A stretch of DNA of 40,347 nt from Candidatus Methylomirabilota bacterium (GTDB lineage: Bacteria > Methylomirabilota > Methylomirabilia > Rokubacteriales > DASRDR01), in NCBI GenBank assembly GCA_036005065.1, contig DASYQW010000030.1, positions 1 to 40,347 on the forward strand, written 5' to 3'. Under the pieces are notes generated by a model that was given only the letters and a program-made list of their open reading frames with translations, was not told where the DNA came from and did no database searches. Below, piece after piece: positions 1,098 to 38,577 of the stretch. Both the position numbers and the translations under genes were made by a program. How positions within the stretch are numbered: the first letter of the stretch is position 1; each line of letters begins with the position of its first letter.

Positions 1098-1213
1098 TCG
1101 GGGGGTCTCGGAAGACCCCCCGATAATCGGTTGCGGCCGCACAGCCGCCGCTCGGAGCGCTGCCCGACGCGCCGCACGCTCGGAGCGAGCTCCCGGTTAC
1201 TCCGACAGCCTCC
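1098..1213 (+). repeat. Intergenic modular repeat, copy 1a (head at dnaJ start)
   Basis: Full-length copy reading on the plus strand. The head is a perfect 11-bp hairpin (1098-1108 with 1113-1123, loop CGGA). The arm is 1133-1151 (GCGGC paired with GCCGC), followed by CTCGGAGCG. The tail TTACTCCGACAGCCTCC ends at 1213. Bases 1127-1170 match 43 of 44 bases of the reverse complement of 5561-5604, which fixes it as one family. The head lies 22 bases from the dnaJ start codon, so the dnaJ mRNA would carry the element in antisense orientation in its leader. Confidence 0.8.
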
Positions 1214-1238
1214 TGGGCGGTTTCCGGCTCCTCCTTGG

Positions 1239-1247
1239 ATTGTAGCA
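1239..1247 (-). promoter_or_regulatory. Candidate extended -10 promoter for the dnaJ-like gene
   Basis: On the minus strand the sequence reads TTTGCTACAATCC, that is TG-N-TACAAT, an extended -10 element. No convincing -35 lies 17-18 bases upstream. It sits in the non-repeat middle of the 1076-1425 gap. A transcript from it would begin near 1232 and run through repeat copy 1a before reaching the start codon at 1075, giving a leader of roughly 155 bases with two strong hairpins. Confidence 0.4.
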
Positions 1248-1335
1248 AACCCGACAGGGGGGCCGGTCCGGACTGGGGCGGCCCGCTGGGCGCCGTCGGA
1301 ACGACCAGGCGCAACGGACCGCGCAACCGCCAAGG

Positions 1336-1420
1336 ATTGGTGGTCCGCTCCGAGCGGCGGCTGTGCCGCCGCAATTGTCCTGGGGGAGGTCTCGGAGGAG
1401 GCCGTCGAGGCCCCCTCCGA
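1336..1420 (-). repeat. Intergenic modular repeat, copy 1b (head at htrA stop)
   Basis: Copy reading on the minus strand, immediately after htrA. The head hairpin is 1394-1403 with 1409-1418 (one mismatch; loop TCGAC in the htrA sense). The arm hairpin is a perfect 8-bp stem, 1354-1361 with 1365-1372, loop TGT on the plus strand. Next comes CTCGGAGCGGACCACCAAT, which matches the block after the arm in copies 2a and 6. No good tail is seen. The head probably terminates or protects the ftsH-htrA transcript, but there is no T-run. Confidence 0.75.
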
Positions 1421-1425
1421 CTGCC

Positions 1426-2892
1426 TTACCCGCGGCCCACGGTGAAGGCGACGAAGAGCGCGGAAGACCCGCGCTGGAGCAGGAGTGTCACCCGCTCGCC
1501 CTCCTTGAGCCCGCGCGCGAGGCGCTCGAACTCGGCGACGTTCCTGATTTTCTGCCGATTGAGCTCCCGGATGACGTCACCCGGCTGGATCCCGCCGGTG
1601 TCGGCCGGGCTGCCCGACTCGACCGACGCCACCACGACGCCCTCGGCAGCCCGAAGACCGAGCTGGCGCGCCAGGTCCGGCGTGAGCGGCTTCACCTCGA
1701 GCCCGAGCAGGCTCCTGGCCTTGGAGGACCGTCCAGCGATTTCGGCCTCGTCCGGGGCCTCGCCGATCTTCACCTCTACCGTGCGCTCGCCGCGCTCGCG
1801 CAGCAGCTTGACCTTCGCGCTACTGCCGGGCCCGGCGAGGCCGACCGCGCGCTGGAGGTCGCTCGGCGCCGACACGCGCTTGCCGTTGAACTCCACGATG
1901 ATGTCGCCCGACTTGAGGCCGGCCTTCTCGGCCGGACTCCCCTCCACGACGTCGGCGACCAGGACGCCGCTCTCCTCCTTGGCGCCGAAGCTCTTCGAGA
2001 GCTCCGCGGTCAGCGGCTGCACGCTGACCCCGAGCCAGCCCCGGGTCACTTTGCCGCGGGTGGTGAGCTCCCCGTAGATCTTCTTGGCCAGGTTGATCGG
2101 GATGGCGAAGCCGATGCCCAGCGAGCCGCCGGTGCGGCTCACGATGGCCGTGTTGATCCCGATGACCTCGCCCGCCATGTCGACGAGCGGGCCGCCCGAG
2201 TTGCCCGGGTTGATCGCGGCGTCGGTCTGGAGGAAATCATCGAAGGGTCCCTGGCCGAGGACGCGGCCCTTGGCGCTGATGATGCCCGCGGTGACCGTCT
2301 GGGTGAACCCGAACGGGCTGCCGATGGCGAGCACCCAGTCCCCGACCTGTGCCACGTCGGAATCCCCCAGCCGCGCCGCCGGGTAGTTCGCGCCACCCGC
2401 GATCCGGAGCACGGCGAGGTCGGACTTGGCATCGGCGCCGAGGACCTTGGCCTTGTGCTTTTTCCCGTCGGCGGTGACGACCTCGATCTCCGAGGCTCCC
2501 TCGACGACGTGGGCGTTCGTGAGCGCGATCCCCGACGGGTCCACGACGACGCCCGAGCCGAGGCTCTTCTGCGTGTACTCGCGGGGCCCCCCGAAGAAGC
2601 GACGGAAGAACTCCTCCCCGAAGAACTCCTCCATCGGGCTCCGCGGCCCGGCGAAGGGGTTCTTCAGGACGGTCACGGTGTTGATGTTGATGACGGCCGG
2701 CCCGACCGTGGCCGCCACCTGCCGGAACGTGTTCGAGCTCTCCGGCGCCGCGACCCGGACGATCGGGGCCGCCACCAATGCCGACCGCGGAGCCTGGGCG
2801 AAGCTCGTCACGCCGTAGGCGCCCAGCCCGGCCCCGATCGACACCGCCACCACCACCAGCGCGCACAGCGTGCGCCGCCTGAGCTGCATCAT
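1426..2892 (-). CDS. htrA: HtrA/DegP-family periplasmic serine protease with two PDZ domains
   Basis: Envelope quality-control protease that degrades misfolded exported proteins. Residues 1-33 look like an uncleaved anchor or signal peptide (MMQLRRR, then a hydrophobic stretch ending near AQA). The trypsin-like domain carries the full triad His128 (TNAHVV), Asp158 (SDLAVL) and Ser232 (GNSGGPL). Two PDZ domains follow at about 275-365 and 390-485. At 488 aa it is typical of the DegP/MucD group. The start is one of two adjacent ATGs (2890-2892 or 2887-2889) with GAGG just upstream. It begins 22 bases after the ftsH stop, so the two are very likely co-transcribed, joining inner-membrane and periplasmic proteolysis. 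The TAA stop is followed within 7 bases by repeat copy 1b. Confidence 0.95.
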   Translation of the reverse strand: MMQLRRRTLCALVVVAVSIGAGLGAYGVTSFAQAPRSALVAAPIVRVAAPESSNTFRQVAATVGPAVININTVTVLKNPFAGPRSPMEEFFGEEFFRRFFGGPREYTQKSLGSGVVVDPSGIALTNAHVVEGASEIEVVTADGKKHKAKVLGADAKSDLAVLRIAGGANYPAARLGDSDVAQVGDWVLAIGSPFGFTQTVTAGIISAKGRVLGQGPFDDFLQTDAAINPGNSGGPLVDMAGEVIGINTAIVSRTGGSLGIGFAIPINLAKKIYGELTTRGKVTRGWLGVSVQPLTAELSKSFGAKEESGVLVADVVEGSPAEKAGLKSGDIIVEFNGKRVSAPSDLQRAVGLAGPGSSAKVKLLRERGERTVEVKIGEAPDEAEIAGRSSKARSLLGLEVKPLTPDLARQLGLRAAEGVVVASVESGSPADTGGIQPGDVIRELNRQKIRNVAEFERLARGLKEGERVTLLLQRGSSALFVAFTVGRG

Positions 2893-2914
2893 GCCTCGTT
2901 CCTCCGCATCCCGG

Positions 2915-4828
2915 TCACGCGCCGACTCCGGTCGCCCCTCCCGTCAGGACGGCCCGCAGCTCCTCCCCCTCCAGGGTCTCGCGCTGCTTGAGCGCCGCCG
3001 CCCCCTGGAGGAGAGTGTCTTTCTTCGATGCCAGGAGCGCTCGCACGCGGTCGTACGTGCGCTCGACGATTTGCCGGACCTCCTCGTCGATGGCTCGCGC
3101 GGTCTCCTCGCTGTAGTCCCGCTCGCCGCCGCCGGCCCATGGCGGTAACCCGTTTCGGCGCAGGAAGGCCGGACTCCCGCCGTCACTGAAGGCGAGCGGG
3201 CCCAGCCGCTCCGACATGCCGTACTTCATGACCATGAGCCGGGCCAGCTCGGTGGCGCGCTCGAGGTCGTTGTGGGCCCCTGTCGAGAGCTCGCCGTACA
3301 CCATCTCCTCGGCCACATGGCCGCCCAGCAGGACGGCGATGCGGTCCTCGAGCTCGGAGCGCCGGAGGATGTAGCGGTCTTCGGTCGGGAGCTGGTAGGT
3401 CATGCCGAGCGCCGCCACCCCACGCGGAATGATCGTCACCTTGTGGACGGGATCCGCGTGGGGAACCGAGAAGGCGACCAGGGCATGACCCATCTCGTGG
3501 TGCGCCACGATGTCGCGCTCCGTCTCGGAGAGGACCCGGCTCTTCCGCTCGAGCCCCGCCACGACGCGGTCGATCGCCTCCTCGAGATCCGCCATCTCGA
3601 CGGCATCCTTGCCCTTGCGGGCCGCCAGCAAGGCCGCCTCGTTGACGATGTTGGCGAGGTCGGCCCCCGCGAACCCCGGGGTCCGGGCGGCGATCACGCG
3701 GAGGTCCACGCCCGGCGCCAGGCGGACGCTCCGAGCGTGCACGCGCAGGATCGCCTCCCGCCCCCGCACGTCGGGCTTGTCCACCACCACCTGGCGGTCG
3801 AACCGCCCCGGCCGGAGCAAGGCCGGGTCCAGCACCTCCGGCCGGTTGGTGGCCGCCATGATGATGACCCCCTTGGAGGCATCGAACCCGTCCATCTCGA
3901 CCAGGAGCTGGTTGAGGGTCTGCTCGCGCTCGTCGTGGCCTCCGACCATGCCGGCCACGCCCCCCCGCGTCTTCCCGATCGCGTCCAGCTCGTCGATAAA
4001 GACGATGCAGGGGGCCTTCTCCTTCGCCTGCTCGAAGAGGTCGCGGACGCGGGCGGCTCCGACGCCGACGAACATCTCCACGAACTCCGAGGCCGACAGG
4101 AAGAAGAACGGCACGTCGGCTTCGCCCGCCACGGCCCGGGCCAGCAGTGTCTTGCCGCTGCCCGGCGGCCCGATCAGGAGCACGCCCTTCGGGATCCGGC
4201 CGCCGAGCCGCTGGTACTTCTTGGGGTTCTTGAGGAAGTCGACGACCTCCTCGAGCTCGGCCCGCGCCTCGTCGACGCCGGCCACGTCGGCGAAGGTGAC
4301 CCGAAGCTCCTTGCGGTCGTAGATCTTGACCTTGGAACGCCCGAACGTCAGGGCCTGGGTCGGGCCGCCGCCCAGGCGGCGGATGACGAACAGCCAGATC
4401 GCCACCATGACGCCGATGGGAAGGAGCCACCCGAAGACGAGGTCCCGGACCAGGGTGGATTCGATGCGGCCGGCGAACTCGACCCGGTGGGCCTGGAGCT
4501 CCGCGAGCAGGGCCGTGTCCTCGGCCGCCGGGATCCGGATGGTGTAGAAGAGGAGCCGCGCGTCGGATCCGGTGAGACGCTCGAGCCAGTCCGGCCGGCC
4601 CGTGGGCGCCTCCGGCACGGCGTCCTTCTTCAGGACGCCGCGGATCTCCTTCTCCCCGAAGGAGACCCGGGCGACCTTGTCCTCCCGCACCAGCTCGAGG
4701 AGCCGGCTCATGGGAAGCTCCTGGATCCGGGGGGCCAGGAGCCAGCTCTGGAGCACGATGAGCACGACGATGCCCAGCGCGACGTAGATGGCTGAGAACT
4801 GGGCCTGCTGGCGGGCGCGCCGCTTCAT
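2915..4828 (-). CDS. ftsH: ATP-dependent zinc metalloprotease FtsH
   Basis: Membrane-anchored AAA+ protease for unstable cytosolic and membrane proteins. There is a TM helix at about 12-32, a periplasmic domain, and a second TM at about 130-150. The AAA module has Walker A GPPGSGKT (220-227), Walker B VFIDE (276-280) and the SRH arginines in [19 protein letters not shown]. The zinc site HEMGH is at 444-448. At 637 aa it has normal family length. The C-terminus is a short acidic-poor tail. The ATG at 4826-4828 lies about 12 bases after the predicted transcription start of a TTGACA-17-TAGCAT promoter, so the leader is very short, with only a weak GGGGA element. It heads a two-gene unit with htrA. 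Confidence 0.97.
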
Positions 4829-4846
4829 CGGGCAATCCCCGGAAAA

Positions 4847-4875
4847 ATGCTAGCCGAAGGGCTCGGGACTGTCAA
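4847..4875 (-). promoter_or_regulatory. Sigma70-type promoter of ftsH-htrA
   Basis: On the minus strand: -35 TTGACA (plus coordinates 4870-4875), a 17-base spacer, and -10 TAGCAT (4847-4852). The predicted start is near 4840, leaving a leader of about 12 bases. It looks like a housekeeping promoter; no heat-shock sigma32-like or CIRCE-like element was seen. Confidence 0.75.
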
Positions 4876-4904
4876 ACTTCGGCGGATTTCTCCGGGGTTG
4901 CGCG

Positions 4905-4933
4905 TTGACAGCCGGGAGGCGACGGCGTATGGT
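4905..4933 (+). promoter_or_regulatory. Sigma70-type promoter of the small secreted protein gene
   Basis: Perfect -35 TTGACA (4905-4910), 17-base spacer, and -10 TATGGT (4928-4933) on the plus strand. Its -35 is only 29 bases from the divergent ftsH -35. Transcription would start near 4940, which places an in-frame GTG (4941) almost exactly at +1 and an ATG (4947) at about +7. Confidence 0.6.
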
Positions 4934-5336
4934 GAGAGCCGTGAGCATGGCCATCCGAATCCTCTTCGCCGGCGCCGGGTTGCTCGGGACCCTGTTCCTC
5001 GGCGGAGGCGCCCGGGCCGAAGAGTCTGCGCTCCCCGCCAGCCCGGGTCTGGACCTGTCCATGCGGGCCCGCGCCCTGGGCGTCGTGCCGGAGCCCTACT
5101 CGGCGGCGACCCTCGGTCTGGAGCCGATGCAGGCGCCCACCGGGGCCGGCATCACGCGCACGCCGCGCCTCGCGTCCAGCCGCGGGTCCGGCGTATACAT
5201 CAGCGTGATCGTGTGCGATGCCGACGGCGTGGATCGCGTCTACACGGTCCGCCTCGACGACGCCGGGACGCTGCCCGAGGGCACGCTCCGCGGCACCGCC
5301 GGGCCGGGCCACCTCTTCGTCCCCGGCCGCCCGTAG
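4929..5336 (+). CDS. Small secreted protein of unknown function
   Basis: About 135 aa. An N-terminal signal peptide (a basic start, the hydrophobic core ILFAGAGLLGTLFLGGG, then ARA and a cleavage site before EES) indicates export. The mature part is short and has no recognised domain. It contains a hydrophobic beta-like segment GVYISVIVCDADGVDRVYTV near the middle and ends GHLFVPGRP. The start is uncertain. ATG 4929 has GGGAGG nine bases upstream, but that lies inside the spacer of a strong promoter and ATG 4929 overlaps its -10. If that promoter is used, translation must start at GTG 4941 (leaderless) or ATG 4947. It diverges from ftsH. The TAG stop is followed within 6 bases by repeat copy 2a. 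Confidence 0.65.
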   Translation: MVRAVSMAIRILFAGAGLLGTLFLGGGARAEESALPASPGLDLSMRARALGVVPEPYSAATLGLEPMQAPTGAGITRTPRLASSRGSGVYISVIVCDADGVDRVYTVRLDDAGTLPEGTLRGTAGPGHLFVPGRP

Positions 5337-5342
5337 ACAATC

Positions 5343-5476
5343 GGGGCCTCGACGGCCCCCTCCCAGACCTCCCCCCTGGAGATGAAAATTGCGCGGCCGA
5401 AGCCCGCGCTCGGAGTGGAACACCAACCGTCGGCGGCTCGGTGAGCCGTGGCGCGCGGTCACTCCGACAGCCTCCG
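5343..5476 (+). repeat. Intergenic modular repeat, copy 2a (head at secreted-protein stop)
   Basis: Plus-strand copy. The head hairpin GGGGCC (5343-5348), loop TCGAC, GGCCCC (5354-5359) is followed by CAGACCTCCCCCC, as in copy 1b. A degenerate arm lies at 5391-5409. Then comes CTCGGAGTGGAACACCAACC, shared with copy 6, and the tail TCACTCCGACAGCCTCC ending at 5475. It faces copy 2b tail to tail. A further TCGAC-loop hairpin lies between the tails at 5486-5507. Confidence 0.75.
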
Positions 5477-5515
5477 AGGATCGTCGGAGGGGCCTCGACG
5501 GCCCTCCGCGGAGCT

Positions 5516-5640
5516 AGGAGCGTTTCGGAGTAACCCGGAGGTTCGCCCAGAGCGGGCCATGCGTCGGGCAGCGCTCCGAGCGGCGGCTGTGCCGCCGCAA
5601 CCGAGGGGGGGCATCGGGGGGGTCTTCCGAGACCCCCCGA
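5516..5640 (-). repeat. Intergenic modular repeat, copy 2b (head at TPM-gene stop)
   Basis: Minus-strand copy. The head hairpin is 5617-5625 with 5630-5638, loop CGGA in the gene sense. A perfect 8-bp arm follows (5580-5587 with 5591-5598), then CTCGGAGCGCTGCCCGACGC. The degenerate tail GTTACTCCGAAACGCTCC lies near 5516-5533. The head begins 4 bases after the TAG stop of the upstream gene. Together with copy 2a it fills almost all of the 308-base gap between two convergent genes. Confidence 0.8.
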
Positions 5641-5644
5641 AGAA

Positions 5645-6100
5645 CTACCCCAGGCTCACCTCGTCGCTCAGCTCGTCCCGGTCGTCGGGGGCGCGTGGAA
5701 AGTGGCGTCGTAGCGTCTCGCCCACGTCCCGGACCGCGGAGGTGATCCCGTCGCGGGGGCGCCCCTGCCGGAAGTGGGCGACCATCATCTCTTTGAGCGA
5801 CTCCCAGTATTCGTCGCTCACCCGCGCGTGGACGCCCGCGTCCCCGATCACCGCGAGCTTCCGGTCCTCGACGGCCAGGTAGATCAGGACGCCGCTGCGG
5901 TGCGCCGTGCGGGTCATGCCCAGGCGCTCGAACAGCGCCACGGCCCGGGCCATCGGGTCCCCGGGACAGCGGGCGTCCAGGTGGACCCGGATCTCTCCCG
6001 ACGTGGCGGCCTCGGCTTCCACGATGGCGCGCCGCACCGCCTCGAGGTCGCCGTCGCTCATGAAGCCCCGCACCCAGCCGGGAGGCCGCGCCCTGGCCAT
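5645..6100 (-). CDS. TPM-domain protein, soluble (second of a pair)
   Basis: 151 aa. The segment from about residue 18 onward (LEAVRRAIVEAEAATSGEIR) is typical of TPM (DUF477/TPM_phosphatase) domains, which accompany LemA genes. There is no signal peptide, TM segment or glycine-rich tail, unlike the upstream paralogue, so it is probably cytosolic. The biochemical role of the family is not firmly known. The ATG at 6098-6100 has a strong AGGAGGG about 6 bases upstream; a later Met at residue 14 is a weaker alternative. It starts 11 bases after the upstream TPM gene and is the last gene of the lemA-TPM-TPM set. The TAG stop is followed after 4 bases by repeat copy 2b. Confidence 0.85.
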   Translation of the reverse strand: MARARPPGWVRGFMSDGDLEAVRRAIVEAEAATSGEIRVHLDARCPGDPMARAVALFERLGMTRTAHRSGVLIYLAVEDRKLAVIGDAGVHARVSDEYWESLKEMMVAHFRQGRPRDGITSAVRDVGETLRRHFPRAPDDRDELSDEVSLG

Positions 6101-6111
6101 GCCCGCCCTCC

Positions 6112-12467: not shown

Positions 12468-12494
12468 GGAGGGGGGCCTCGACGGCCCCCCTCC
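12468..12494 (+). repeat. Intergenic repeat head hairpin (partial copy)
   Basis: Perfect 11-bp stem: GGAGGGGGGCC (12468-12478), loop TCGAC, GGCCCCCCTCC (12484-12494). This is the head module of the dispersed family. Downstream, CAGACCTTCGCTCGGGAGCAC (12507-12527) looks like a decayed body; arm and tail are missing. It lies between the stop of the repeat protein gene (12528) and the FAD-subunit start (12460), 7 bases from the start codon. It may terminate the upstream transcript and affect initiation of the downstream gene. Confidence 0.7.
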
Positions 12495-12527: not shown

Positions 12528-14834
12528 TCAGGGGACGGTGCTGGCGGCGACGAAGACCCCGCCGGTGAAGCGCGAATCGTAGGGGAAGAAGCTCCGGATC
12601 GGCGTCCCCGTCGGACCGTCGAACACCCGCACGTGCGGGCCGCCCCCGGGCCCGGCGCCGGTGATGACGTCGGCCTTGTTGTCGCCGTTGATGAACCCGG
12701 CCGCCACCCGGACGCCGCCGCGGAAGCGCGGATCGTAGGCGAAGAATCCCCGGATTTCCACGCCGGTGCCACCGTCGAAGACTCGCACGTGCGGCCCGCC
12801 GCCGGCCCCGGCGCCCGTGATGATGTCCGCCTTGCCGTCGCCGTTCACGTCGCCGGTCGCGACGAAGACCCCGCCGTTGAAGCGGGGATCGTAGGCGAAG
12901 AACGAGCGGAGCGAGGTCCCACTGACCCCGTCGAAGACCCGCACCTGCGGGGAGCCCGTGGCCGCGCCCGTGACGATGTCGGCTACGCCGTCGCCGTTCA
13001 CATCACCGGCCGCTACCGTGACGCCGCCCGTGAACGTCGTGTCGTAGGCGAAGAAGTTTCGGATCATCGCACCGCTCACCCCGTCGAAGGCGCGGACCTG
13101 CGGGCCCCCGCCCTGACCCGGCCCGGTGACGATGTCGGCCACCCCATCGCCGCTGACGTCGCCCGCCGCCACGAACACTCCACCGGTGAAGCCCTCGGCG
13201 TAGGCCAAGAAATTGCGGATCAGCGCGCTCGTGCGGCCATCGTAGATCCGAACCTCGGGGGTGCCGCCCGGGCCGGCTCCGGTGATGAGGTCCGGGACAC
13301 CATCGCTGTTCAGGTCGGCGGCGGCCACGGTCACCCCGCCCCGGAAGGTCGTGGCGAAGGCAAAGAAGCTCAGATCGCCGGCGCCGGACTCGGCGTGGAA
13401 GCTGCGCACGTGCGGCCCGCCGCCCCGCCCGGCGCCCGTGACGAGGATGTTGTCCACCTGGACCGTCCACAGCTCGATCCCGCTGGTGCCGTCGTTGGCC
13501 TGGAAGACCAGCGTGCCCTGCAGGTTCGTCAGCTCCAGCGGGTTCGAGCTGCCGGACCCGGGGTTGATGTCCGTGACCAGCGCCGTGCCGGCCGTGGTGC
13601 CGGTGCTCCGCCAGAGCTCCCGGCCGCTCTCGTTGGTCGCGGCGAAGTAGAGGACGCCGTCCACGTTCGTGAGGCCGCCCGGCGACGAGCTGCTGGCCCC
13701 GGGGCCGATGTTCCGCACCAGCACCGTCCCGGTATCCGTCCCGTTGCTCTTCCAGAGCTCGTCCCCGTTCGTCGGCTCGGTCGCCCCGAAGAAGAGCGTC
13801 CCGTTCACGTTGACGAGGTCGTGGGGGCTCGAGCTGGCCGCGCCCGGGTTGATGTTCTTCACCAGCGTGGTCCCGGTGTCCGTCCCGTTGCTCTTCCAGA
13901 GCTCATCCCCGTTCGTCGGCTCGGTCGCCCCGAAGAAGAGCGTCCCGTTCACGTCGACGAGGTCGTGGGGGCTCGAGCTGGCCGCGCCGGGGTTGATGTT
14001 CTTCACGATCGTGGTCCCGGTCTCCGACCCGTTGCTCTTCCAGAGCTCGCGGCCATTCACGCTCTCGTCGGCCGTGAAGAAGAGCGTCCCGTTGACGTTG
14101 ACCAGGTTGTCAGGACTGGAGCTCCCGGCTCCGACCACGATGTCCTTCACGACGGCCGTGCCGCCGTCCGACCCGTCGCTCTTCCAGAGCTCGGTCCCGG
14201 TACTCGGGTTGAAGGCCGTGAAGAACAGCGTGCCGTTGACGTTCGTCAGGTGATCGGGGGACGAGTTGCCGCCCAGATTGATGTGCTTGACGATGACCGT
14301 TCCGGTCTCCGTTCCGTCGCTCTTCCAGAGCTCGACGCCGCTCGTCCCGTCGTCGGCGGCGAAGAAGAGCACGCCGTTGACGTTGGTCAGGTTGTGCGGG
14401 CTCGAGCTGGCCGCCCCCGCCTGGATGTTCTTCACCAGGACGGTCCCGGCCTCGGTGCCGTTGCTCTTCCAGAGCTCGAGACCGTTGACCCCGTCGGTGG
14501 CCGCGAAGAACAGGGTGCCGTTGACGTTGGTGAGCTCCTGCGGCACCGAGCTGCCCGGACCGGGGTTGATGTCCCTCACCCGCACGGTTCCCGCCGCCGA
14601 TCCGTCGCTCTTCCAGAGCTCGATGCCCGTCGAGCCGTCGTTGGCCGCGAAGAAGGCCGTGCCCCCGACGGCCGTGATGTCGGTGGGAACAGAGTTGGGC
14701 AGGCCGGGGTTGATGTCTTTGACGAGCACGGCCCGGGGCGGGAGCGCCGCCAGGCCGATCCCCGGCAGGCCGAACTGGGCGACCAGCAGCACCACCAGGA
14801 CCACCGCTTCGAATCGGGTCGGTCGGGACAGCAT
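12528..14834 (-). CDS. Secreted repeat protein with ELWxxxGT and FG-GAP/VCBS-like repeats
   Basis: 768 aa. A signal peptide or TM segment (AVVLVVLLVAQFGLPGIGLAA) is followed by eight units of about 47 residues with ELWKSxGT, then a degenerate ninth ELW. Next come about five units of 52 residues containing calcium-type loops such as DVNGDGVAD plus GGGPHVRVFDG and FFAYDxxF. Both repeat types form beta-propeller blades, so this is probably a large extracellular or surface protein. There is no sortase, autotransporter or type IX sorting tail; it ends GGVFVAASTVP. The ATG start (14832-14834) has a good GGGAGGAGA upstream. It follows the MoaD-like gene by 43 bases. Function unknown. Confidence 0.85.
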   Translation of the reverse strand: MLSRPTRFEAVVLVVLLVAQFGLPGIGLAALPPRAVLVKDINPGLPNSVPTDITAVGGTAFFAANDGSTGIELWKSDGSAAGTVRVRDINPGPGSSVPQELTNVNGTLFFAATDGVNGLELWKSNGTEAGTVLVKNIQAGAASSSPHNLTNVNGVLFFAADDGTSGVELWKSDGTETGTVIVKHINLGGNSSPDHLTNVNGTLFFTAFNPSTGTELWKSDGSDGGTAVVKDIVVGAGSSSPDNLVNVNGTLFFTADESVNGRELWKSNGSETGTTIVKNINPGAASSSPHDLVDVNGTLFFGATEPTNGDELWKSNGTDTGTTLVKNINPGAASSSPHDLVNVNGTLFFGATEPTNGDELWKSNGTDTGTVLVRNIGPGASSSSPGGLTNVDGVLYFAATNESGRELWRSTGTTAGTALVTDINPGSGSSNPLELTNLQGTLVFQANDGTSGIELWTVQVDNILVTGAGRGGGPHVRSFHAESGAGDLSFFAFATTFRGGVTVAAADLNSDGVPDLITGAGPGGTPEVRIYDGRTSALIRNFLAYAEGFTGGVFVAAGDVSGDGVADIVTGPGQGGGPQVRAFDGVSGAMIRNFFAYDTTFTGGVTVAAGDVNGDGVADIVTGAATGSPQVRVFDGVSGTSLRSFFAYDPRFNGGVFVATGDVNGDGKADIITGAGAGGGPHVRVFDGGTGVEIRGFFAYDPRFRGGVRVAAGFINGDNKADVITGAGPGGGPHVRVFDGPTGTPIRSFFPYDSRFTGGVFVAASTVP
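13747..14034. repeat. Near-identical 144-bp tandem duplication inside the repeat protein gene
   Basis: Two adjacent 144-base units (13747-13890 and 13891-14034) each encode one 48-residue ELWKSNGTDTGT... blade. By eye they differ at only about 8 positions, far less than the other blades, which points to recent duplication or gene conversion. A third, more diverged unit follows in phase from 14035. Confidence 0.8.
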
Positions 14835-15793: not shown

Positions 15794-15829
15794 CCGCCCC
15801 TCCTGCGCCCGGCCCCCTCCCATGCTCCA

Positions 15830-15951
15830 GGAGCCTGTCGGACTAATGAGAACTGGAGGCCGGAATTCTTGGCTGCGACAGCTTCCGAGCGGCGGCTTGG
15901 CCGCCGCAACCGACGGGGGGGCATCGGGGGGGTCTTCCGAGACCCCCCCGA
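15830..15951 (-). repeat. Intergenic modular repeat, copy 3 (head at SDR stop)
   Basis: Complete copy on the minus strand. The perfect 12-bp head (15924-15935 with 15940-15951, loop CGGA in the gene sense) starts 4 bases after the SDR stop. The 8-bp arm is 15889-15896 with 15900-15907. CTCGGAAGCTG follows, then less conserved sequence and the tail TTAGTCCGACAGGCTCC ending at 15830. It occupies nearly all of the space between the SDR and RidA genes, and the head would make a strong though T-poor terminator for the long hyu operon. Confidence 0.8.
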
Positions 15952-15955
15952 GGAT

Positions 15956-16735
15956 CTAAACATCCCAGCCGCCGTCGACGGTCAGGCACTGCCCCGTCAT
16001 GTTCCGCGACTCGTCGGTGCACAGGAAGCATACCGCGTTCGCCACGTCGTCAGCGGTCGTGACCCGGCGGAGGGCCATCTCCTGGACGTATTCGGCGTAG
16101 ACCTGCTCGGGTGTCCACCCGCGCTTCCGCGCCTTCTCGCGGCAGAGCCGGTCCATCCGTGGCCCGCCGACGATCCCCGGGGCCACGCAGTTCACGGTGA
16201 TGCCGTGAGGGCCGACCTCGAGCGCGACCGTGCGGGTGAAGCCCCGCACGGCCCACTTCGACGACGAGTAGGCCGCCCGCAGCTTGTAGCCGCGGAGCCC
16301 GGAGGTGCCCGCGATGTTCACGATCTTCCCGCCGCCCTGCCGGAGCATGACGGGTACCACGTGCTTGGTCGGGAGAAAGGTCCCCCGGAGGTTCACCGCG
16401 AGCACCTCGTCCCAGTCCTCCAGCTTGATCTGGTGGACGGGCGTCTCGATGGGGCCCGTCGTCCCGGCACAGTTCACCAGGACGTCGACCCGCCCGAAGG
16501 TGTCGACCGTGGCCTCGACCAGCGCCCGCACCGAGGCCTCGTCGCGCACGTCGGTCGGCACGACCAGTGCCCGGCGCCCGAGCGCGCGGACCTCGGCGGC
16601 CACCACCTCGAGGGGCGGCGCCTCCCGCGCCGCCAGCACCAGGTCGGCGCCCTCGCCGGCGAGGCGCCGGACGATCGCCTCTCCCATGCCCTTGGCGGCG
16701 CCCGTCACGATCGTCACCCGGTCGCGAAGCTTCAT
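15956..16735 (-). CDS. Short-chain dehydrogenase/reductase (SDR)
   Basis: 259 aa classical SDR. The Rossmann nucleotide motif TGAAKGMGE is at 11-19, followed by VNCAGT and the catalytic set Ser (in NIAGTSG) and YSSSK. The end TGQCLTVDGGWDV is typical. It oxidises or reduces a hydroxy/keto group with NAD(P); the Ala-Arg segment after beta-2 does not settle the cofactor. The ATG (16733-16735) overlaps the hyuB stop as ATGA, so it is translationally coupled and likely acts on the same pathway, perhaps on a product of HyuAB. The TAG stop is next to repeat copy 3. Confidence 0.93.
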   Translation of the reverse strand: MKLRDRVTIVTGAAKGMGEAIVRRLAGEGADLVLAAREAPPLEVVAAEVRALGRRALVVPTDVRDEASVRALVEATVDTFGRVDVLVNCAGTTGPIETPVHQIKLEDWDEVLAVNLRGTFLPTKHVVPVMLRQGGGKIVNIAGTSGLRGYKLRAAYSSSKWAVRGFTRTVALEVGPHGITVNCVAPGIVGGPRMDRLCREKARKRGWTPEQVYAEYVQEMALRRVTTADDVANAVCFLCTDESRNMTGQCLTVDGGWDV

Positions 16736-26110: not shown

Positions 26111-26853
26111 GCGGTGGCCTCGGCGCGCTCGGGCTCGATGCGCGGGCGATAGGTGCCGGCCGCGACCGCGTCGGCGATGGCGCGAAACTCATCGGCATCG
26201 ATGGGGCGGAAGCGGACGCGATCGCCCGCCCGGAGCAGAATCGGCTCGGCACTGGCCGGGGCGTAGAGGGCGAGCGGCGTGCGCCCGAGGACCCAGAAGC
26301 CTCCCGGGCTCTCTACCGAGTAGATCGAGCACTGGCTGCCGCCGATCCCCACGCTCCCGGGCGGCGTCTTCGTCCGCGGCCGGTCCAGGCGCGGGATCGT
26401 GAGCCGCTCGGGCATGCCGGTCATGTAGGGGAGCCCCGGCGTGAAGCCGACGAAATAGACGAAGTACTCGGCGCCGGCGTGGAGCCGCACGACCTCATCC
26501 GGAGCGAGACCGAGTCGCCGCGCCACTTCCTCGAGGTCGGGGCCGTGCTCGCCTCCGTAGGCGCACGGCAGCTCGACCCGCCGCCCGGGCGGCGGCGCTG
26601 CCGCGGCCAGACGCGGGACGAGGGCCTGGAGGTGGCCGAGAAGGTCCTCCCAGCCGAGCACGAGCGGATCGTAGGAGACGAGCAGCGATCGGAACGTCGG
26701 CACCGTCTCGACGATCCCGGGCAGGCGCGCCTCGGCGAGCAGTCGTTCCAGCGTGCGCACCCGGGCGTTCGCCTCGCGGGAGATCTCGTCGGCCAGCTCC
26801 ACGGACACCGCGAGGTCGCCCGCCGGAAGGACGCGCGGTTCGGCGTAGATCAT
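26107..26853 (-). CDS. pxpB: 5-oxoprolinase subunit PxpB (KipI family)
   Basis: 248 aa. Family motifs: GDLAVSVELADEI near the N-terminus, LLVSYDPL, LPCAYGGEHGPDLEEVA, YFVGFTPGLPYMTGMPE, and TKTPPGSVGIGGSQCSIYSVESPGGFWVLGRT. It is one half of the PxpBC pair. The ATG (26851-26853) gives the expected N-terminus but lies directly against repeat copy 6: the base before it is the end of the CCCCCTCCC stem, so there is no free Shine-Dalgarno. An upstream in-frame TTG would add 34 repeat-encoded residues and is unlikely. Confidence 0.92.
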   Translation of the reverse strand: MIYAEPRVLPAGDLAVSVELADEISREANARVRTLERLLAEARLPGIVETVPTFRSLLVSYDPLVLGWEDLLGHLQALVPRLAAAAPPPGRRVELPCAYGGEHGPDLEEVARRLGLAPDEVVRLHAGAEYFVYFVGFTPGLPYMTGMPERLTIPRLDRPRTKTPPGSVGIGGSQCSIYSVESPGGFWVLGRTPLALYAPASAEPILLRAGDRVRFRPIDADEFRAIADAVAAGTYRPRIEPERAEATA

Positions 26854-27007
26854 GGGAGGGGGCCATTGATGCGCGGGCTTCGCCCGTTGGGGCCCCCTCC
26901 CAAACCCGAGGAGAAGGGTGCGCGGGCGAAGCCCGCGCTCGGAGCGGAGCACCAACCGTGGGCGGTTAGGGGATCGCGAAGCGCCTGATTAATCCGACAG
27001 CCTCCTA
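26854..27007 (+). repeat. Intergenic modular repeat, copy 6 (head at pxpB start)
   Basis: Full copy on the plus strand filling the gap between the DUF1445 gene and pxpB. The head is a compound hairpin: an outer 11-bp stem GGGAGGGGGCC (26854-26864) with 26891-26901, and inside it a small CGGGC-TTC-GCCCG hairpin. The arm is an 8-bp stem 26920-26927 with 26931-26938. CTCGGAGCGGAGCACCAACC follows, and the tail TTAATCCGACAGCCTCCTAG ends at the stop of the upstream gene. It reads opposite to the genes around it. Confidence 0.78.
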
Positions 27008-27009
27008 GA

Positions 27010-32302: not shown

Positions 32303-32317
32303 GAGAGCCCCTCCCTG

Positions 32318-32934: not shown

Positions 32935-32940
32935 ATTGTA
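32935..32940 (-). promoter_or_regulatory. Possible -10 element for hicBA
   Basis: Minus-strand TACAAT about 135 bases upstream of the hicB start, in the 180-base gap after the DUF72 gene. No -35 match at 17 bases (TTTCCC). The rest of the gap (32800-32979) shows no gene or repeat that can be supported. Confidence 0.3.
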
Positions 32941-32979
32941 GCGTGCCAGGCCCGCGCGGGAAAGCCGAACCGGCGGGGT

Positions 32980-33705: not shown

Positions 33706-33723
33706 GGGTCCCTCGCAGGTCTT

Positions 33724-33732
33724 TGCTATCAT
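33724..33732 (+). promoter_or_regulatory. Candidate extended -10 promoter of the GNAT gene
   Basis: Plus-strand TGCTATCAT, an extended -10, with no clear -35. The predicted start is near 33739, giving a leader of about 50 bases that contains GGGAGGAG at 33775-33782. It would rule out translation from the TTG at 33723. Confidence 0.4.
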
Positions 33733-33788
33733 GGGAAGCGCTCCGACGGCGGACTTTCTTTTCGCGCGCCCGACGGGAGGAGACGGCC

Positions 33789-34304
33789 ACGACGATCCGG
33801 GACGCCACCGTGGCCGATGCGGCCGCCATCTGCCGCATCTACAACGAGGGCATCCAGGACCGTGTCGCCACGCTAGAGACCGAGGAGCGCACCGAAGACG
33901 AGCGTCGGGCCTGGCTCGAGGCCCGCGGGCCGCGTCACCCGGTGCTCGTGGTCGAAGTGCCGACCGCCGATGGAGCCCGGGTCGTGGGTTGGGGGAGTCT
34001 CAACGTGTTCAACCCCCGACGCGCCTACGACCACGTCGCCGACTTCTCCCTCTACGTCGACCGGACCTGCCGGGGGCGTGGGATCGGCCGTCGCCTCCTC
34101 GAGGCGCTGATCGCGCGCGCGCGGACGCTCGGCTATCACAAGCTCGTCCTGTCGGCATTCCCCTGGAACGAGGCGGGAACGACGGTGTATCGGCGGGCCG
34201 GCTTCCGGACGGTGGGAATCTACCGCGAGCAGGGACTCCTGGATGGCCGCTGGGTCGACACCATCATCATGGAGAAGATCCTCGACGGCCCCAGCGCCCA
34301 CTAG
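33789..34304 (+). CDS. GNAT N-acetyltransferase, phosphinothricin/arsinothricin acetyltransferase-like, apparent ACG start
   Basis: About 171 aa. IRDATVADAAAICRIYNEGI at the N-terminus, then the acetyl-CoA site RGRGIGRRLLEALIARA and LSAFPWNEAGTTVYRRAGF, VGIYREQGLLDGRWVDTIIMEK: this is the Pat/Bar/YncA branch, which N-acetylates amino-acid-like toxins or related amines. The family normally starts MTTIRDAT or similar. Here a strong GGGAGGAG (33775-33782) is followed after 6 bases by ACG-ACG-ATC with no ATG, GTG or TTG in frame at that place. The only upstream in-frame start (TTG 33723) would add 22 unrelated residues. A T-to-C change in the start codon is the simplest reading. It diverges from the DUF72 gene. 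Confidence 0.85.
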   Translation, partial: TTIRDATVADAAAICRIYNEGIQDRVATLETEERTEDERRAWLEARGPRHPVLVVEVPTADGARVVGWGSLNVFNPRRAYDHVADFSLYVDRTCRGRGIGRRLLEALIARARTLGYHKLVLSAFPWNEAGTTVYRRAGFRTVGIYREQGLLDGRWVDTIIMEKILDGPSAH

Positions 34305-34309
34305 GTTCT

Positions 34310-34337
34310 TCGGGGGGGTCTCGGAAGACCCCCCCGA
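34310..34337 (+). terminator. Bidirectional terminator hairpin; head module of the intergenic repeat family
   Basis: Perfect 12-bp stem TCGGGGGGGTCT (34310-34321) with 34326-34337, loop CGGA. It lies 5 bases after the GNAT stop and 6 bases from the convergent LuxR-type gene stop, with no arm or tail. There is no T-run in either direction, so it may act as a strong RNA-end stabiliser or Rho-assisted terminator. Confidence 0.7.
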
Positions 34338-34343
34338 GGTGGT

Positions 34344-35075
34344 CTAGGGGCGGACGAGGCCCTCCCGGATGGCGTAGCGCACCAACTGGGCGGCGTTCCC
34401 GAGCTCGAGCTTGCGGAAGATGTTCTGGCGGTGGGTCTCGATCGTCTTGAGGCTGGTGCCGAGCTTGTCGGCGATCTCCTTGGACGTCATGCCCTCGGCG
34501 ATGTGCCGGATGATCTCCAGCTCGCGTGGCGTGACGCGGCTGCCCCGGTCGCGGAACCCGCGCGACCCCCGCCGTTCGCCGGCGGGCTCGTACGCCGCGA
34601 GCACCCGCCACAGCGTGTAGTGCTGGATCCGGAGCAGGGCCAGGAGCGTTTGCGACACCGCCGGACTGACCCGCAGCGTGCTCAAGAGGACGTGGGTCAC
34701 GCTCTCCTGGTGGGCCTCCAGGAAGGCCAGCAGCCGCTCGGGTCCGAGGCGGTCCCGCGCGAACTCGAGGGCGACTTCCTCGATGGCGCTCGTGTAGCCG
34801 CGAAAGTCCCGCCGGGCGAGCGCCCGGTGGACGCGCTCGAGCAGCCGCGGAGCCAGGTCCACCTCCCGCGGCGTCCACTCGCGGCCGACGAGATCCCGGT
34901 AGCGCGTCCGCCACTGGCGCGTCACCGCGTCGCGGTGACGCTCGAGGCGGGTGAAGGTGGCCGCCACGGCGTGCTGGGCGGGCCCGGCCAGGGAGAATCC
35001 GGGCGGGAGGGTTCCCGTCCGCTCGGCAATGGCCTCCCGGTCAGACAGGGTTCGCTCGGCGTTCGTCCTGGTCAT
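34344..35075 (-). CDS. LuxR-type HTH transcriptional regulator with helical N-terminal sensor domain
   Basis: 243 aa. The C-terminal 65 residues are a GerE/LuxR HTH: VTPRELEIIRHIAEGMTSKE, IADKLGTSLKTIETHRQNIF, then a RKLELGNAAQLVRYAIREGL tail. The N-terminal 170 residues are all helical (RHRDAVTRQWRTRYRDLVG, RVHRALARRDFRGYTSAIEE), resembling RsbRD-N/RsbT-co-antagonist-type sensor domains. No receiver Asp is seen, so it is not a classical response regulator. It starts 38 bases after the LarA-like gene and may regulate it or the neighbouring ABC operon. TAG stop. Confidence 0.82.
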   Translation of the reverse strand: MTRTNAERTLSDREAIAERTGTLPPGFSLAGPAQHAVAATFTRLERHRDAVTRQWRTRYRDLVGREWTPREVDLAPRLLERVHRALARRDFRGYTSAIEEVALEFARDRLGPERLLAFLEAHQESVTHVLLSTLRVSPAVSQTLLALLRIQHYTLWRVLAAYEPAGERRGSRGFRDRGSRVTPRELEIIRHIAEGMTSKEIADKLGTSLKTIETHRQNIFRKLELGNAAQLVRYAIREGLVRP

Positions 35076-35113
35076 ATGTTCTCGCTATCGCCGAGCCCGC
35101 CCCGCCGCCACCC

Positions 35114-36376
35114 TCAGAAGGGCAACAGCGCCCCGGTCGCATCGAAGGCGAGCGGGGCCGGCTCGCTGACCTGACGGAGGTCTTCGCGTTTGGCGACCTC
35201 GGGAGCGAAGGCCTCCGACACCTCGACCTCGGCGAGGCGCAAAGTATTCTTGATCCGAACCACACGCGCGTCCTCGATCCGCTCGAGGCCGAGGCACGAC
35301 AGCGCCACTGCGACCGCATCCCGGTCCGTGTCGAGCACGGGCGGGAGCTTGGCGCCGGCCGGTGAGCACGCCGTGAGGCAGTTGATGTACGTCGCGTTCC
35401 ACTCGACTTTGTCGGCGAGCCGCCGGGTGGTGAAGTCCGCATTCCCGATCCCGGTGGCGTTCCCGTAGGTGTGAGCCGTGAGGTCACACACGACGATGAA
35501 GGTGATCTTGGGGCTCGGAAACGGCGGCTCGAAGAAGGTGCCGTGACGGCCGATGATGTTGGAGTCCATACCCGCGCCCGAGACGTCCTTCCCCATCTCG
35601 TCCACGATGAGGAGGTCAATCGGGTCGAACGGCAGCCGCGCCATCCATGCCTTCGCTTCCCGGAGCAGCGCGCGCTCGCCGGCTTCGATGTCGGCCGGGA
35701 GGAAGGCCTGGACCTTCGCGGTCTCGTCGTACCCGTTCTCGACGATGCCCAGCCCGAAGGCGATCCGGGCCCGGCGGAGCATTTCGCGCCCGACGCTGGT
35801 CACGACGGTCTCGTACCGGTGACGGATGTTGGCCCGGTGGGCCTGAATGGCCCCCCGGTGCTTGCCGAGTCCGATGGTCATCATCTTGAACAGGCCGGAC
35901 TCGATCTCGCCCTTGAAGTCGGTGTGCGGCTTCACGCGGTTGATGACGCCGATCCAGTCGGCCTGGGAGGCTTCGCGGTCGAGCCATACCGGCAGCCCGA
36001 GGGTTTCACCGACCTGCACGACGTCCATCGTCGCCCGGATCGGGCATCCCATGGTCGCGTCCGTGATCCCATAGTGTTCCAGGACCGAGAGCTGGCCCTC
36101 GGTGGTGCCGCCCCCGTGACTCCCCATGGCCGGGAAGACGAAGGGGTGGGCGCCGAGGCGCTTCAGGTGATCGACGCACGCCCGGGTGACGACGTCGATG
36201 TTGACGATGCCGCGGCTGCCGACCGCCAGCGCGACGGTCTGCCCGGGCTTGATCGGCAGCGGAAGGGCGCCGAGCGTGTCGCGGACCGCGGCGGCCACGT
36301 CGTGCAGCAAGGGGCCGGGGAACTGCTGCTTCAGGCGAACCATGCGCGGGAAGCTGGTGGCGCGAGGGATGCTCAT
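35114..36376 (-). CDS. LarA-like (DUF2088, nickel-dependent lactate racemase N-terminal) protein
   Basis: 420 aa. Seen: PIKPGQTVALAVGSRGI and HPFVFPAMGSHGGGTTEGQL, then a central region GVINRVKPHTDFKGEIESGL and KMMTIGLGKHRGA. These resemble the LarA N-terminal fold. True LarA carries the LysHisHis residues for its nickel-pincer cofactor, and these are not clearly recognisable, so racemase activity should not be assumed. The ATG (36374-36376) has GAGGAGG 8 bases upstream and lies behind a near-consensus promoter. Possibly an isomerase or dehydratase of a hydroxy acid. Confidence 0.75.
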   Translation of the reverse strand: MSIPRATSFPRMVRLKQQFPGPLLHDVAAAVRDTLGALPLPIKPGQTVALAVGSRGIVNIDVVTRACVDHLKRLGAHPFVFPAMGSHGGGTTEGQLSVLEHYGITDATMGCPIRATMDVVQVGETLGLPVWLDREASQADWIGVINRVKPHTDFKGEIESGLFKMMTIGLGKHRGAIQAHRANIRHRYETVVTSVGREMLRRARIAFGLGIVENGYDETAKVQAFLPADIEAGERALLREAKAWMARLPFDPIDLLIVDEMGKDVSGAGMDSNIIGRHGTFFEPPFPSPKITFIVVCDLTAHTYGNATGIGNADFTTRRLADKVEWNATYINCLTACSPAGAKLPPVLDTDRDAVAVALSCLGLERIEDARVVRIKNTLRLAEVEVSEAFAPEVAKREDLRQVSEPAPLAFDATGALLPF

Positions 36377-36397
36377 GGGGTGACCCTCCTCGCCCCG

Positions 36398-36426
36398 AGT
36401 CTAGCCGGCCCCCTGGGGGGTGTCAA
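36398..36426 (-). promoter_or_regulatory. Sigma70-type promoter of the LarA-like and LuxR-type genes
   Basis: Minus-strand -35 TTGACA (plus 36421-36426), 17-base spacer, -10 TAGACT (36398-36403). Predicted start near 36391, leaving about 15 leader bases that hold the GAGGAGG site. The spacer contains CCCCCCAGGGGG, a palindromic run where a regulator could bind. Confidence 0.7.
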
Positions 36427-36694
36427 AGCGCATGTTGTGCCTTCCTACGGCAAATTTTGCACGCCGGCCTCGCACGCCACATTCCCCCTAGGGGTGGAGC
36501 AAACTACATTCCAGGTTTCACCGTAAGGCGGCGGGGTGCCGGTTCGCGCGCCCGGCGGGCGGTTCGGGCCCTGTCGTGGCTGAGCCGCGTGGGAGGGCCG
36601 CTGTTGGGAGCCTGCCGGTCGTTCCCGTTCCGGACAGCCGAGCGGGTGGGCCGGCCGTCGTCCGGCCGCGTCGAGGGAAAGCGGGTGGCCCGCG
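36427..36694. other. Non-coding stretch with operator-like repeats and a hairpin
   Basis: 268 bases with no supportable gene, part of the 318-base gap between the LarA-like gene and the permease. Near the promoter: direct repeats GCACGCC (36459-36465 and 36472-36478) and ACATTCC (36479-36485 and 36506-36512), and the palindrome CCCCTAGGGG (36485-36494), all upstream of the -35. Near the permease stop there is a GGCCGG/CCGGCC hairpin (36649-36654 with 36662-36667, 7-base loop). This gap holds no copy of the dispersed repeat family. Confidence 0.5.
36649..36667 (-). terminator. Weak hairpin after the permease gene
   Basis: 6-bp GC stem with a 7-base loop, about 28 bases past the permease stop (36695). 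No T-run. Possible transcript end for the sugar ABC operon. Confidence 0.3.
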
Positions 36695-37558
36695 CTACAT
36701 CCCCTGGACCGCGCCCGAGACCAGGCCGTGGGTCAGATAACGCCGGAAGACGTAGTAGAAGACGACCGGCGGGATCGCATAGATGGTCGAGAGCGCCATC
36801 AGGAGGTTCCAGGGAGCGTCATCGCCCGTCAGGAAGGTGCCCATGGAGATGGGCAGCGTGAACATGTGCTCGCTCTGGAGGAAGAGCACGGCGTAGAGGT
36901 ACTCGTTCCAGGCGAAGAAGAAGGCGTACGTCCCGATGGCGATCAGCGGCGGAAGCACCAGCGGCAGGTAGATCCGGTAGAAGATGGTCAGCAGCCCCGC
37001 CCCGTCGATGGCGGCCGACTCGTCGATTTCCGGGGGAATCGTCTTGGCGTAGTCCCAGAGCACCCACAGGGCATACGGGGAGGCGAAGGTGGTCATGGCC
37101 GCGATGAGCGCCCAATACGTGTCCAGCAGATCGTAGTCGGCCATGATCTTGAAGAACGGGATGGAGAGGAAGGAGGCCGGGATGATGTAGGTGAAGAGGG
37201 TCATGCCGGAGATGACGCGGCTGAGCCCGAAGTGGAGCCGCCCGAGGGCGAAGCTGCCGAGGGCGCTGATCACGAGGACGGCCCCCATGGTCACGCCCGC
37301 CACCAGGACACTGTTCCCCATCCACCGCCAGAAGTATTTGACGAAGACGCTCTGCTGGAACACGACGAACCGGTACGACTCCAGGGTCGGGTTCCGCACC
37401 CAGTATTCCGGCCGGAACAGCTCGGCAGTGGGAGTGAACGACAGCACGAGCATGTAGTAGATGGGGAAGAGAGTCCACACCGCGACCAGCGCCAGCACCA
37501 CGGCCCTGGCGAGCCTGACCACGATCTGGCGGACGCGCCCGCCGGCCGGCCGGGTCAC
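36695..37558 (-). CDS. Carbohydrate ABC transporter permease (MalG/UgpE type)
   Basis: 287 aa, six TM helices (first at LARAVVLALVAVWTLFPIYYM). The EAA loop EIDESAAIDGAGLLTIFYRI followed by YLPLVLPPL is the site that docks the ATPase. A typical C-terminus RRYLTHGLVSGAVQGM is present, as in sugar permeases. The GTG start (37556-37558) overlaps the stop of the partner permease as GTGA. It is the last gene of the three-gene importer; no ATPase gene follows, so a shared MsmK/UgpC-type ATPase encoded elsewhere is probably used. Confidence 0.93.
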   Translation of the reverse strand: MTRPAGGRVRQIVVRLARAVVLALVAVWTLFPIYYMLVLSFTPTAELFRPEYWVRNPTLESYRFVVFQQSVFVKYFWRWMGNSVLVAGVTMGAVLVISALGSFALGRLHFGLSRVISGMTLFTYIIPASFLSIPFFKIMADYDLLDTYWALIAAMTTFASPYALWVLWDYAKTIPPEIDESAAIDGAGLLTIFYRIYLPLVLPPLIAIGTYAFFFAWNEYLYAVLFLQSEHMFTLPISMGTFLTGDDAPWNLLMALSTIYAIPPVVFYYVFRRYLTHGLVSGAVQGM

Positions 37559-38436
37559 TTGATCTTCTTGATGAGGATGAAGATGAACAGCAGCGTCACC
37601 GGGAGAGCGGTCGCGAAGACCCCCACCCCCCAGTCGATCTTGCCCATGAGAAACGTATAGCGGTAGGCCAGGGTCGCCAGCACGTGGGTGGAGTCTCCGG
37701 GCGCCCCGCCCGTCAGGAGCCACACGTTGGTGAAGTCCCCCAGCGTGAAGACCATGGAGAGGAGGGAGCAGATCAGGTAGATGCCCTTGAGCATCGGGAA
37801 CGTGATGAAGCGGAAGTTCTGGAACGGCCCGGCGCCATCGATGGCGGCCGCTTCGTAGAGCTCCCGGGGGATCCCCCGGCGGGCCGCCAGGAAGATCACG
37901 GTCCAGAAGGGCAGGTACTTCCAGATGTGGAAGGTGATGAGCGCCCCGATGGCCATCCAGCGCGAGGCGAGCCAGTGGACGGTCCCGACGCCGATGTCCT
38001 CCATGATGAGGTTCATGATTCCCCACTGGGACGAGAGCATCCAGCGGATGGAGAGGATGCCGGGCAGGACCGGAATCGCCCAGGGGAGGAGGAAGATCGC
38101 CGACAGAAAGCGCACGCTCCGGCTGTCGGACTGGAGAATGCCCGACAGGAGCAAGGCCAGGATGAGCTTCACGTTGACGGCCACGCCGACGTAGGTCAGC
38201 GTGTTGACGATGGTCTGGACGTAGATGGGGTCGGCGAACAGGACCTCGTAGGTGTACCGGTCGAGGGCCTGGGTGACCTCGAAATAGAGCGGGTAGACGA
38301 CGAAGGCGATGAAGAGGAAGATCAGCGGCAGACAGAAGAGGAGGCCCTGGAGGTTCCGGGCTCGCGGCGCGAATACCGCGGCCGATCGCGCGACGAGCCC
38401 GTTGATCCCCCGGGGGCGCGCTACTGCATTCGCCAT
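37555..38436 (-). CDS. Carbohydrate ABC transporter permease (MalF/UgpA type)
   Basis: 293 aa, six TM helices after a cytosolic N-terminal stretch (NLQGLLFCLPLIFLFIAFVV is the first). The EAA loop reads ELYEAAAIDGAGPFQNFRFI. It ends VTLLFIFILIKKIK. ATG 38434-38436 with a short AGG upstream. It is separated from the binding-protein gene by 145 bases that hold repeat copy 7, which would lower permease expression relative to the binding protein. Confidence 0.93.
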   Translation of the reverse strand: MANAVARPRGINGLVARSAAVFAPRARNLQGLLFCLPLIFLFIAFVVYPLYFEVTQALDRYTYEVLFADPIYVQTIVNTLTYVGVAVNVKLILALLLSGILQSDSRSVRFLSAIFLLPWAIPVLPGILSIRWMLSSQWGIMNLIMEDIGVGTVHWLASRWMAIGALITFHIWKYLPFWTVIFLAARRGIPRELYEAAAIDGAGPFQNFRFITFPMLKGIYLICSLLSMVFTLGDFTNVWLLTGGAPGDSTHVLATLAYRYTFLMGKIDWGVGVFATALPVTLLFIFILIKKIK

Positions 38437-38497
38437 TTCTACCTGAGCCGCGCGGGTAACGCGCTCTCCGCGCGCCGACTCTCCGCGCCCACCAGTC

Positions 38498-38577
38498 CGG
38501 ACCGCTCCGAGCGCGGGCTTCGCCCGCGCAACCCTCCCGGGGGGAGGTCTCGGGGGGGGGCGCTGCCCCCCTCCGAA
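38498..38577 (-). repeat. Intergenic modular repeat, copy 7 (head at binding-protein stop)
   Basis: Minus-strand copy between the binding-protein and permease genes. The head is a variant hairpin GGGGGGC (38555-38561), loop GCT, GCCCCCC (38565-38571), followed in gene sense by CGAGACCTCCCCCC. The arm is a perfect 8-bp stem 38511-38518 with 38522-38529. CTCGGAGCGG follows. The tail is not recognisable. The head starts about 5 bases after the TAG stop. Confidence 0.72.

Follow-up and report, generated by a model that had tools for sequence, protein, structure and literature searches.

The window analysed here is the whole of contig DASYQW010000030.1 (C30; 40,347 nucleotides), from the genome of a soil/groundwater Rokubacteria bacterium of the order Rokubacteriales (assembly GCA_036005065.1), a metagenome-assembled genome (MAG) of 5.63 Mb in 419 contigs that is 97.9% complete. 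Nine full or partial copies of a palindromic element lie in the window, and the same element is dispersed over the genome. These copies very probably represent a non-autonomous mobile family, similar to repetitive extragenic palindromes (REPs), that targets 5′-CTAG and is served by a putative mobilising enzyme acting in trans. We know of no cultured model for this order, and a literature search on Rokubacteria palindromic repeats or on insertion at CTAG or stop codons found nothing about this family in the library searched.

Structure, abundance and spread of the element

The common plan of the element is a stop codon or 5′-CTAG, 4–8 nucleotides (nt), hairpin 1 (the head), a C-rich spacer (ATGCCCCCCC or ACCTCCCCC), hairpin 2 (the arm), about 35 nt, the tail sequence TTACTCCGACA, five variable nt and 5′-CTAG. 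Its length is about 105–150 nt, with an optional insert between the arm hairpin and TTACTCCGACA. Hairpin 1 occurred as GGGGGGTCT-CGGA-AGACCCCCC, GGGAGGGGGCC-TCGAC-GGCCCCCTCCC or GGAGGGGGTGT-CGGA-ACACCCCCTCC, and the stem of hairpin 2 as GCGGC, CGGGC or CCGGC. Among 50 sequences from this genome and its relatives, hairpin 2 pairing was kept in 99.3% of cells, and two of its pairs were swapped on both sides in 19 and 21 sequences with no break. No terminal inverted repeats were detected when the head (GTCATTTCGGGG) was compared with the reversed tail (GAGCCTGTCGGAGTAACC). The form of an intrinsic terminator, a GC hairpin followed by a U tract, was not seen, the printed copies being C-rich after hairpin 1. 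An Rfam search of the window gave no match at the gathering score.

The exact core pattern (TTGCG-N12..28-GCTCGGAGCG) occurred 115 times genome-wide but only once when reversed as a control, and the exact tail pattern occurred 43 times against none in the control. Anatomy and placement were counted in about 1.45 Mb of the genome sampled around core matches, which inflates coverage fractions and affects orientation counts less. Placement was based on our own gene calls, with the caller seeded with Pfam-confirmed genes. In this sample, 142 of the 150 accepted copies were intergenic.

A two-hairpin covariance model matched 59 of 60 Rokubacteriales genomes (including this one), 1 of 35 relatives in the class and none of 4 genomes outside; these counts are lower bounds, as at most 48 candidates were scored per genome. 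Among core matches in named genomes, 41 of 42 were in Candidatus Rokuibacteriota. The core was also present on a contig labelled Actinobacteria AC_55 (L032), which may be a Rokubacteria contig placed in the wrong bin. Compared with the double hairpin, the tail with CTAG has a patchier spread: it was detected, with the same spacing, in 11 genomes of the order including this one. Exact tail-CTAG copies numbered 40 in this genome, with a spacing of N4-6, and 23 in G025, a Rokubacteriales genome of another family. The G025 element is shorter, its simplest form measuring about 105 nt, but it agrees with the present one in head, spacer, arm and tail and in the CTAG at its ends. Two other G025 loci, L309 and L310, carry a tail (TTACTCCGACA-N5-CTAG) with neither head nor arm; at L309 this tail lies directly 3′ of a short gene that, judged by eye, is HicA/YcfA-like.

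5′-CTAG as boundary and probable target

5′-CTAG was found at 55 of 90 class-A heads, mostly 4–8 nt before hairpin 1. At the other end, it stood exactly at +5 after TTACTCCGACA in 32 of 99 tails, and 35 more had it with one mismatch (67/99). Its background frequency is 0.00028 per position. Heads facing a start codon (11/24) and heads far from any gene (8/9) had it as well. The presence of CTAG at heads away from stops indicates that it belongs to the boundary of the element.

The tetranucleotide is ninefold rarer than expected from base composition (423 observed, 3911 expected). Fifty of the 423 sites lie within 1.30 Mb of coding sequence (CDS), 176 are at stop codons and 197 are intergenic. 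The element was present at 65 of the stop-codon sites and at none of those in CDS. Since CTAG is scarce in CDS and common at stops, an element that targets it ends up at stops.

In the mechanism that we propose, a putative enzyme supplied in trans would copy the element to new places. CTAG would be the insertion site, so that it would end up on both sides. With TAG readable on either strand of CTAG, insertion at a gene end would keep the stop codon, and insertions would separate convergent genes without damage. The rarity of CTAG in CDS, its frequency at stops and its TAG on both strands would together produce the observed polarity.

Placement relative to genes

The 142 intergenic copies were distributed as 52 in convergent gaps, 47 in tandem gaps with the head at a stop, 26 in tandem gaps with the head at a start and 4 in divergent gaps, the remainder lying beside contig ends. 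Among intergenic regions of 120 bp or longer, 70 were convergent, 243 tandem and 98 divergent. Heads faced a stop in 106 cases and a start in 30. The stop codon beside a head was TAG in 55 of 86 cases, compared with 387 of 1362 overall (odds ratio 5, p ~1e-12). A likeness to bacterial interspersed mosaic elements (BIMEs) or miniature inverted-repeat transposable elements (MITEs), suggested earlier for the window, is borne out in kind: the family is dispersed, non-autonomous and apparently mobile, and occupies convergent and tandem gene ends but almost never divergent gaps. The claim that the head always abuts an edge of an open reading frame (ORF) was too strong, as only about three quarters of heads in the 1.45-Mb sample lie at a tight distance and tails abut edges too.

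The preliminary description had also suggested a polar 3′-end module under selection. Such a module might act as a terminator or a stabiliser of mRNA 3′ ends, with mobility secondary and polarity reflecting RNA function. The position of the head hairpin a few nt past the stop, the strong avoidance of divergent gaps and the maintained stem pairing all agree with it, as do the mild excess of sense copies in tandem gaps (47 vs 26, p=0.019) and the finding of U-tract terminators at merely 9 of 1322 gene ends. However, the CTAG boundary is present even where no stop is near, the CTAG census accounts for placement at stop codons, and 26 tandem copies are oppositely oriented, with tails likewise adjoining stops. 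At one locus described below (L156), moreover, a gene copy that lacks the element still has a hairpin downstream. We regard this explanation as unlikely. CTAG targeting explains the placement at gene ends, for which a selected 3′-module is not needed; mild selection may still account for the sense bias that remains in tandem gaps.

An effect of the head hairpin on RNA 3′ ends may exist alongside CTAG targeting. Located in the transcript a few nt past the stop, the hairpin could, by analogy with REPs of E. coli, hold up ribosomes, shield the 3′ end or aid termination. REPs of E. coli at 15 nt or less from a stop stall ribosomes (PMC12306157). The small number of U-tract terminators makes a role of the hairpin in 3′-end formation possible. 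Elements fill much of the longer convergent spacers in this genome, so they would shape the 3′ ends of many mRNAs. A simple rule explains why the element abuts stops without any selected function: its target is a tetranucleotide seldom found in genes that itself supplies a stop codon. This rule also advises caution in taking the 3′-end position of repeats as evidence for a regulatory role.

Filled and empty sites

At L156 in this genome, a gene is tandemly duplicated, with the element present after one copy and absent after the other. The filled site reads GGGAACTGCTAG-element-CTAG-GGCGCGC and the empty site GGGAACTGCTAG-CGCGCG. A single CTAG in the empty state and CTAG on both sides in the filled state fit target duplication and an element-borne CTAG alike. 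Two loci of G025 had full-length empty matches in G059, a genome of the same genus, with one junction exactly at the stop codon TAG. Head-to-tail neighbours shared one CTAG in 7 of 30 cases. Among 13 genomes with the PntB gene, only this genome had the element at its 3′ end. The PntB orthologs were considered as empty sites for CTAG, but most of their stops are TGA, which makes them uninformative on this point.

Several observations weigh against a CTAG-targeting mobile family. The searches gave no autonomous partner or linked transposase, and most relatives have the double hairpin without the CTAG tail. Many heads and tails carry merely CTAG-like letters (NTAG, CTGG). The empty site L311 has no readable CTAG, its junction letters having diverged, and at the empty site L312 the letters are GTAG. 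Sometimes the same 5 nt precede the CTAG of the tail and that of the head, an agreement not expected from a simple 4-nt target. A class of copies at TGA stops, with head CTGAGTTGAA and a tail ending in CTCTGAG, does not fit CTAG directly.

Copies of this last class, with tails ending in GGACTCTGAG and without CTAG, were seen at several loci of this genome (G000), including L135, L141 and L154; their target may be CTGAG. A longer target duplication (5 nt plus CTAG) was considered and rejected, as pre-head and pre-tail letters agreed only slightly more often than shuffled ones. At L085:5334-5470 (− strand), an element lies between overlapping ABC permease genes, with 13 nt (GACCGGCGGCTAG), a stretch exceeding CTAG, identical on both sides.

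Search for a mobilising enzyme and comparison with known systems

The element might be a canonical REP moved by a REP-associated tyrosine transposase (RAYT) or IS200/IS605 enzyme (HUH Y1) whose gene the MAG lacks or whose sequence has diverged beyond recognition. IS200/IS605 elements have no inverted repeats (PMC2817692). Here, too, terminal inverted repeats are lacking, hairpins lie near both ends, a TAG-containing tetranucleotide precedes the hairpin as in GTAG REPs, and the target is a short tetranucleotide. However, Y1_Tnp (PF01797) was found in none of five genomes (this one, G003, G025, G026 and G004). RAYT (NF047646, E up to 0.1) was found in none of seven double-hairpin genomes, G003 among them, six of which have the CTAG tail (this one, G025, G005, G007, G026 and G039), while control genomes did match. 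We consider a RAYT or IS200/IS605 origin quite improbable.

GTAG-tagged REPs and BIMEs are numerous extragenic palindromes of convergent and tandem gaps whose TAG terminus is often the stop codon (PMC3733652), and the present family shares all of these features. It differs from GTAG REPs in having CTAG on both sides, two hairpins, a length of 105–150 nt and a conserved tail, with no RAYT in the searched genomes. Instead of the GTAG or CGTC tag at the end of a REP palindrome, the element carries CTAG at each end, on the head side 4–8 nt ahead of hairpin 1, with GTAG as a minority variant.

Palindrome-associated transposable elements (PATEs), which derive from IS200/IS605, have subterminal hairpins and a tetranucleotide target. 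Our element resembles them in these two features and in its lack of inverted repeats. Unlike for PATEs, no IS200/IS605 transposase was found in the searched genomes.

A MITE of an IS5-like DDE transposase that duplicates CTAG would resemble MITEPsy1 of Pseudomonas syringae, a non-autonomous IS5-type element of about 100 nt that inserts after CTAG or YTAA and duplicates its target (PMC3189936). The CTAG target and the CTAG on each side of the filled L156 site are in line with this origin. It is made very unlikely by the lack of terminal inverted repeats, and the present family exceeds 100 copies. Two PF01609 (DDE_Tnp_1) transposases were rejected as partners because neither core nor tail was present in their fetched surroundings, one of which had no CTAG at all.

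Helitron 3′ ends consist of a hairpin, a few nt and CTAG. The head read in reverse (hairpin, 4–8 nt, CTAG) recalls this arrangement and would fit a non-autonomous rolling-circle element of the IS91/Helitron type (Y2 HUH). This genome also has a Y2_Tnp fragment, a partial IS91-type gene of 158 amino acids in a remnant insertion at L216:9340-10195 (contig C8 of G000). The remnant is bounded by AGGAAGTGTTAGC and GCTAGCACTTCCT-like inverted ends beside CTAG. As a partner this sole partial Y2 gene was rejected, since its ends are different (AGGAAGTG...CACTTCCT) and have neither the head nor the tail of the element. With no linked Y2 enzyme, an IS91/Helitron origin has little probability.

A longer, transposase-bearing copy was sought at 30 of the 43 exact tails, and all 30 were short elements. 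A RAYT-like or other transposase sharing the tail, as envisaged in the preliminary description, was looked for and not found. The family is REP-like in habit; as far as tested, it falls outside the RAYT-REP family, and it is not an inverted-repeat MITE. REP-like repeats have previously been tied to RAYT and GTAG. This family shares their genomic habit but bears a different tag, and no such enzyme was found. It is conceivable, although the balance tips slightly to the contrary, that a yet-unknown non-RAYT enzyme moves, throughout the order, a REP-like class that directs itself to gene ends through its target CTAG, which is scarce in coding DNA and gives a stop codon on either strand, and that is harmless between convergent genes.

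Copies in the window

All nine copies listed in the preliminary description are present in the window. It had given six heads after a stop in sense orientation and three before a start in antisense orientation, which agrees with our gene calls, and it had noted no transposase, in accordance with a Pfam scan of the window genes.

Five copies are complete. E1 (1088..1216, +) is bounded by CTAC (1088-1091) and CTGG (1213-1216); it has its head hairpin at 1098-1121, its arm hairpin at 1131-1156 and its tail, TTACTCCGACAGCCTC, at 1197-1212. The head is 23 nt from the DnaJ start (1075, −). E3 (5333..5478, +) begins with GTAG (5333-5336), which contains the stop codon TAG, followed by the head hairpin, the arm (5389-5417), tail CACTCCGACAGCCTC and boundary CGAG (5475-5478). 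E4 (5514..5648, −) has the tail-side boundary CTAG (5514-5517), arm 5572-5600 and head 5617-5638, and its head-side boundary GTAG is the stop TAG of a TPM-domain gene (5645). An additional head-type hairpin, GGAGGGGCCTCGACGGCCCTCC (5485..5510, +), sits between E3 and E4. E6 (15828..15959, −) has tail boundary CTGG (15828-15831), arm 15885-15912 and head 15927-15948, with the head-side boundary TTAG at the stop of an SDR gene (15956). E7 (26845..27008, +), with an extra hairpin inside the head loop, has boundary GTAG (26845-26848), arm 26918-26946, tail TAATCCGACAGCCTC and boundary CTAG (27005-27008).

Four copies are partial. E2 (1326..1419, −; first given as 1336-1420) has the head and arm hairpins and a stretch beginning with CACCAA but no tail, and its head comes after the stop of a DegP-like protease gene (1426, −). 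E9 (38498..38585, −; first given as 38498-38577) has head and arm without a tail, its boundary TTAG being the stop of a solute-binding-protein gene (38582). E5 is a lone head hairpin, GGAGGGGGGCCTCGACGGCCCCCCTCC (12468..12494, +). E8 (34301..34347, +) is a lone head hairpin (34310-34337) flanked by CTAG at 34301-34304 and at 34344-34347; two convergent genes end here, and each has one of these CTAG sites as its stop codon.

The reported identity of 43 of 44 nt between 1127-1170 and the reversed 5561-5604 was correct by direct reading, and this match lies within a longer inverted pair of 70 nt with 86% identity. Elsewhere in the window, 144- and 156-nt tandem repeats (12543-14713) lie within a single gene for an FG-GAP repeat protein. 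Three hairpins (GGAGGGGGGCTGCGCCCCCCTCCGACGGCCCTCCCGGCGAAGCCGGG...) form a related array that occurs repeatedly, at L093:8083-8172, L076:217, L083:12263 and L087:7, with similar arrays in relatives at L042 and L068.
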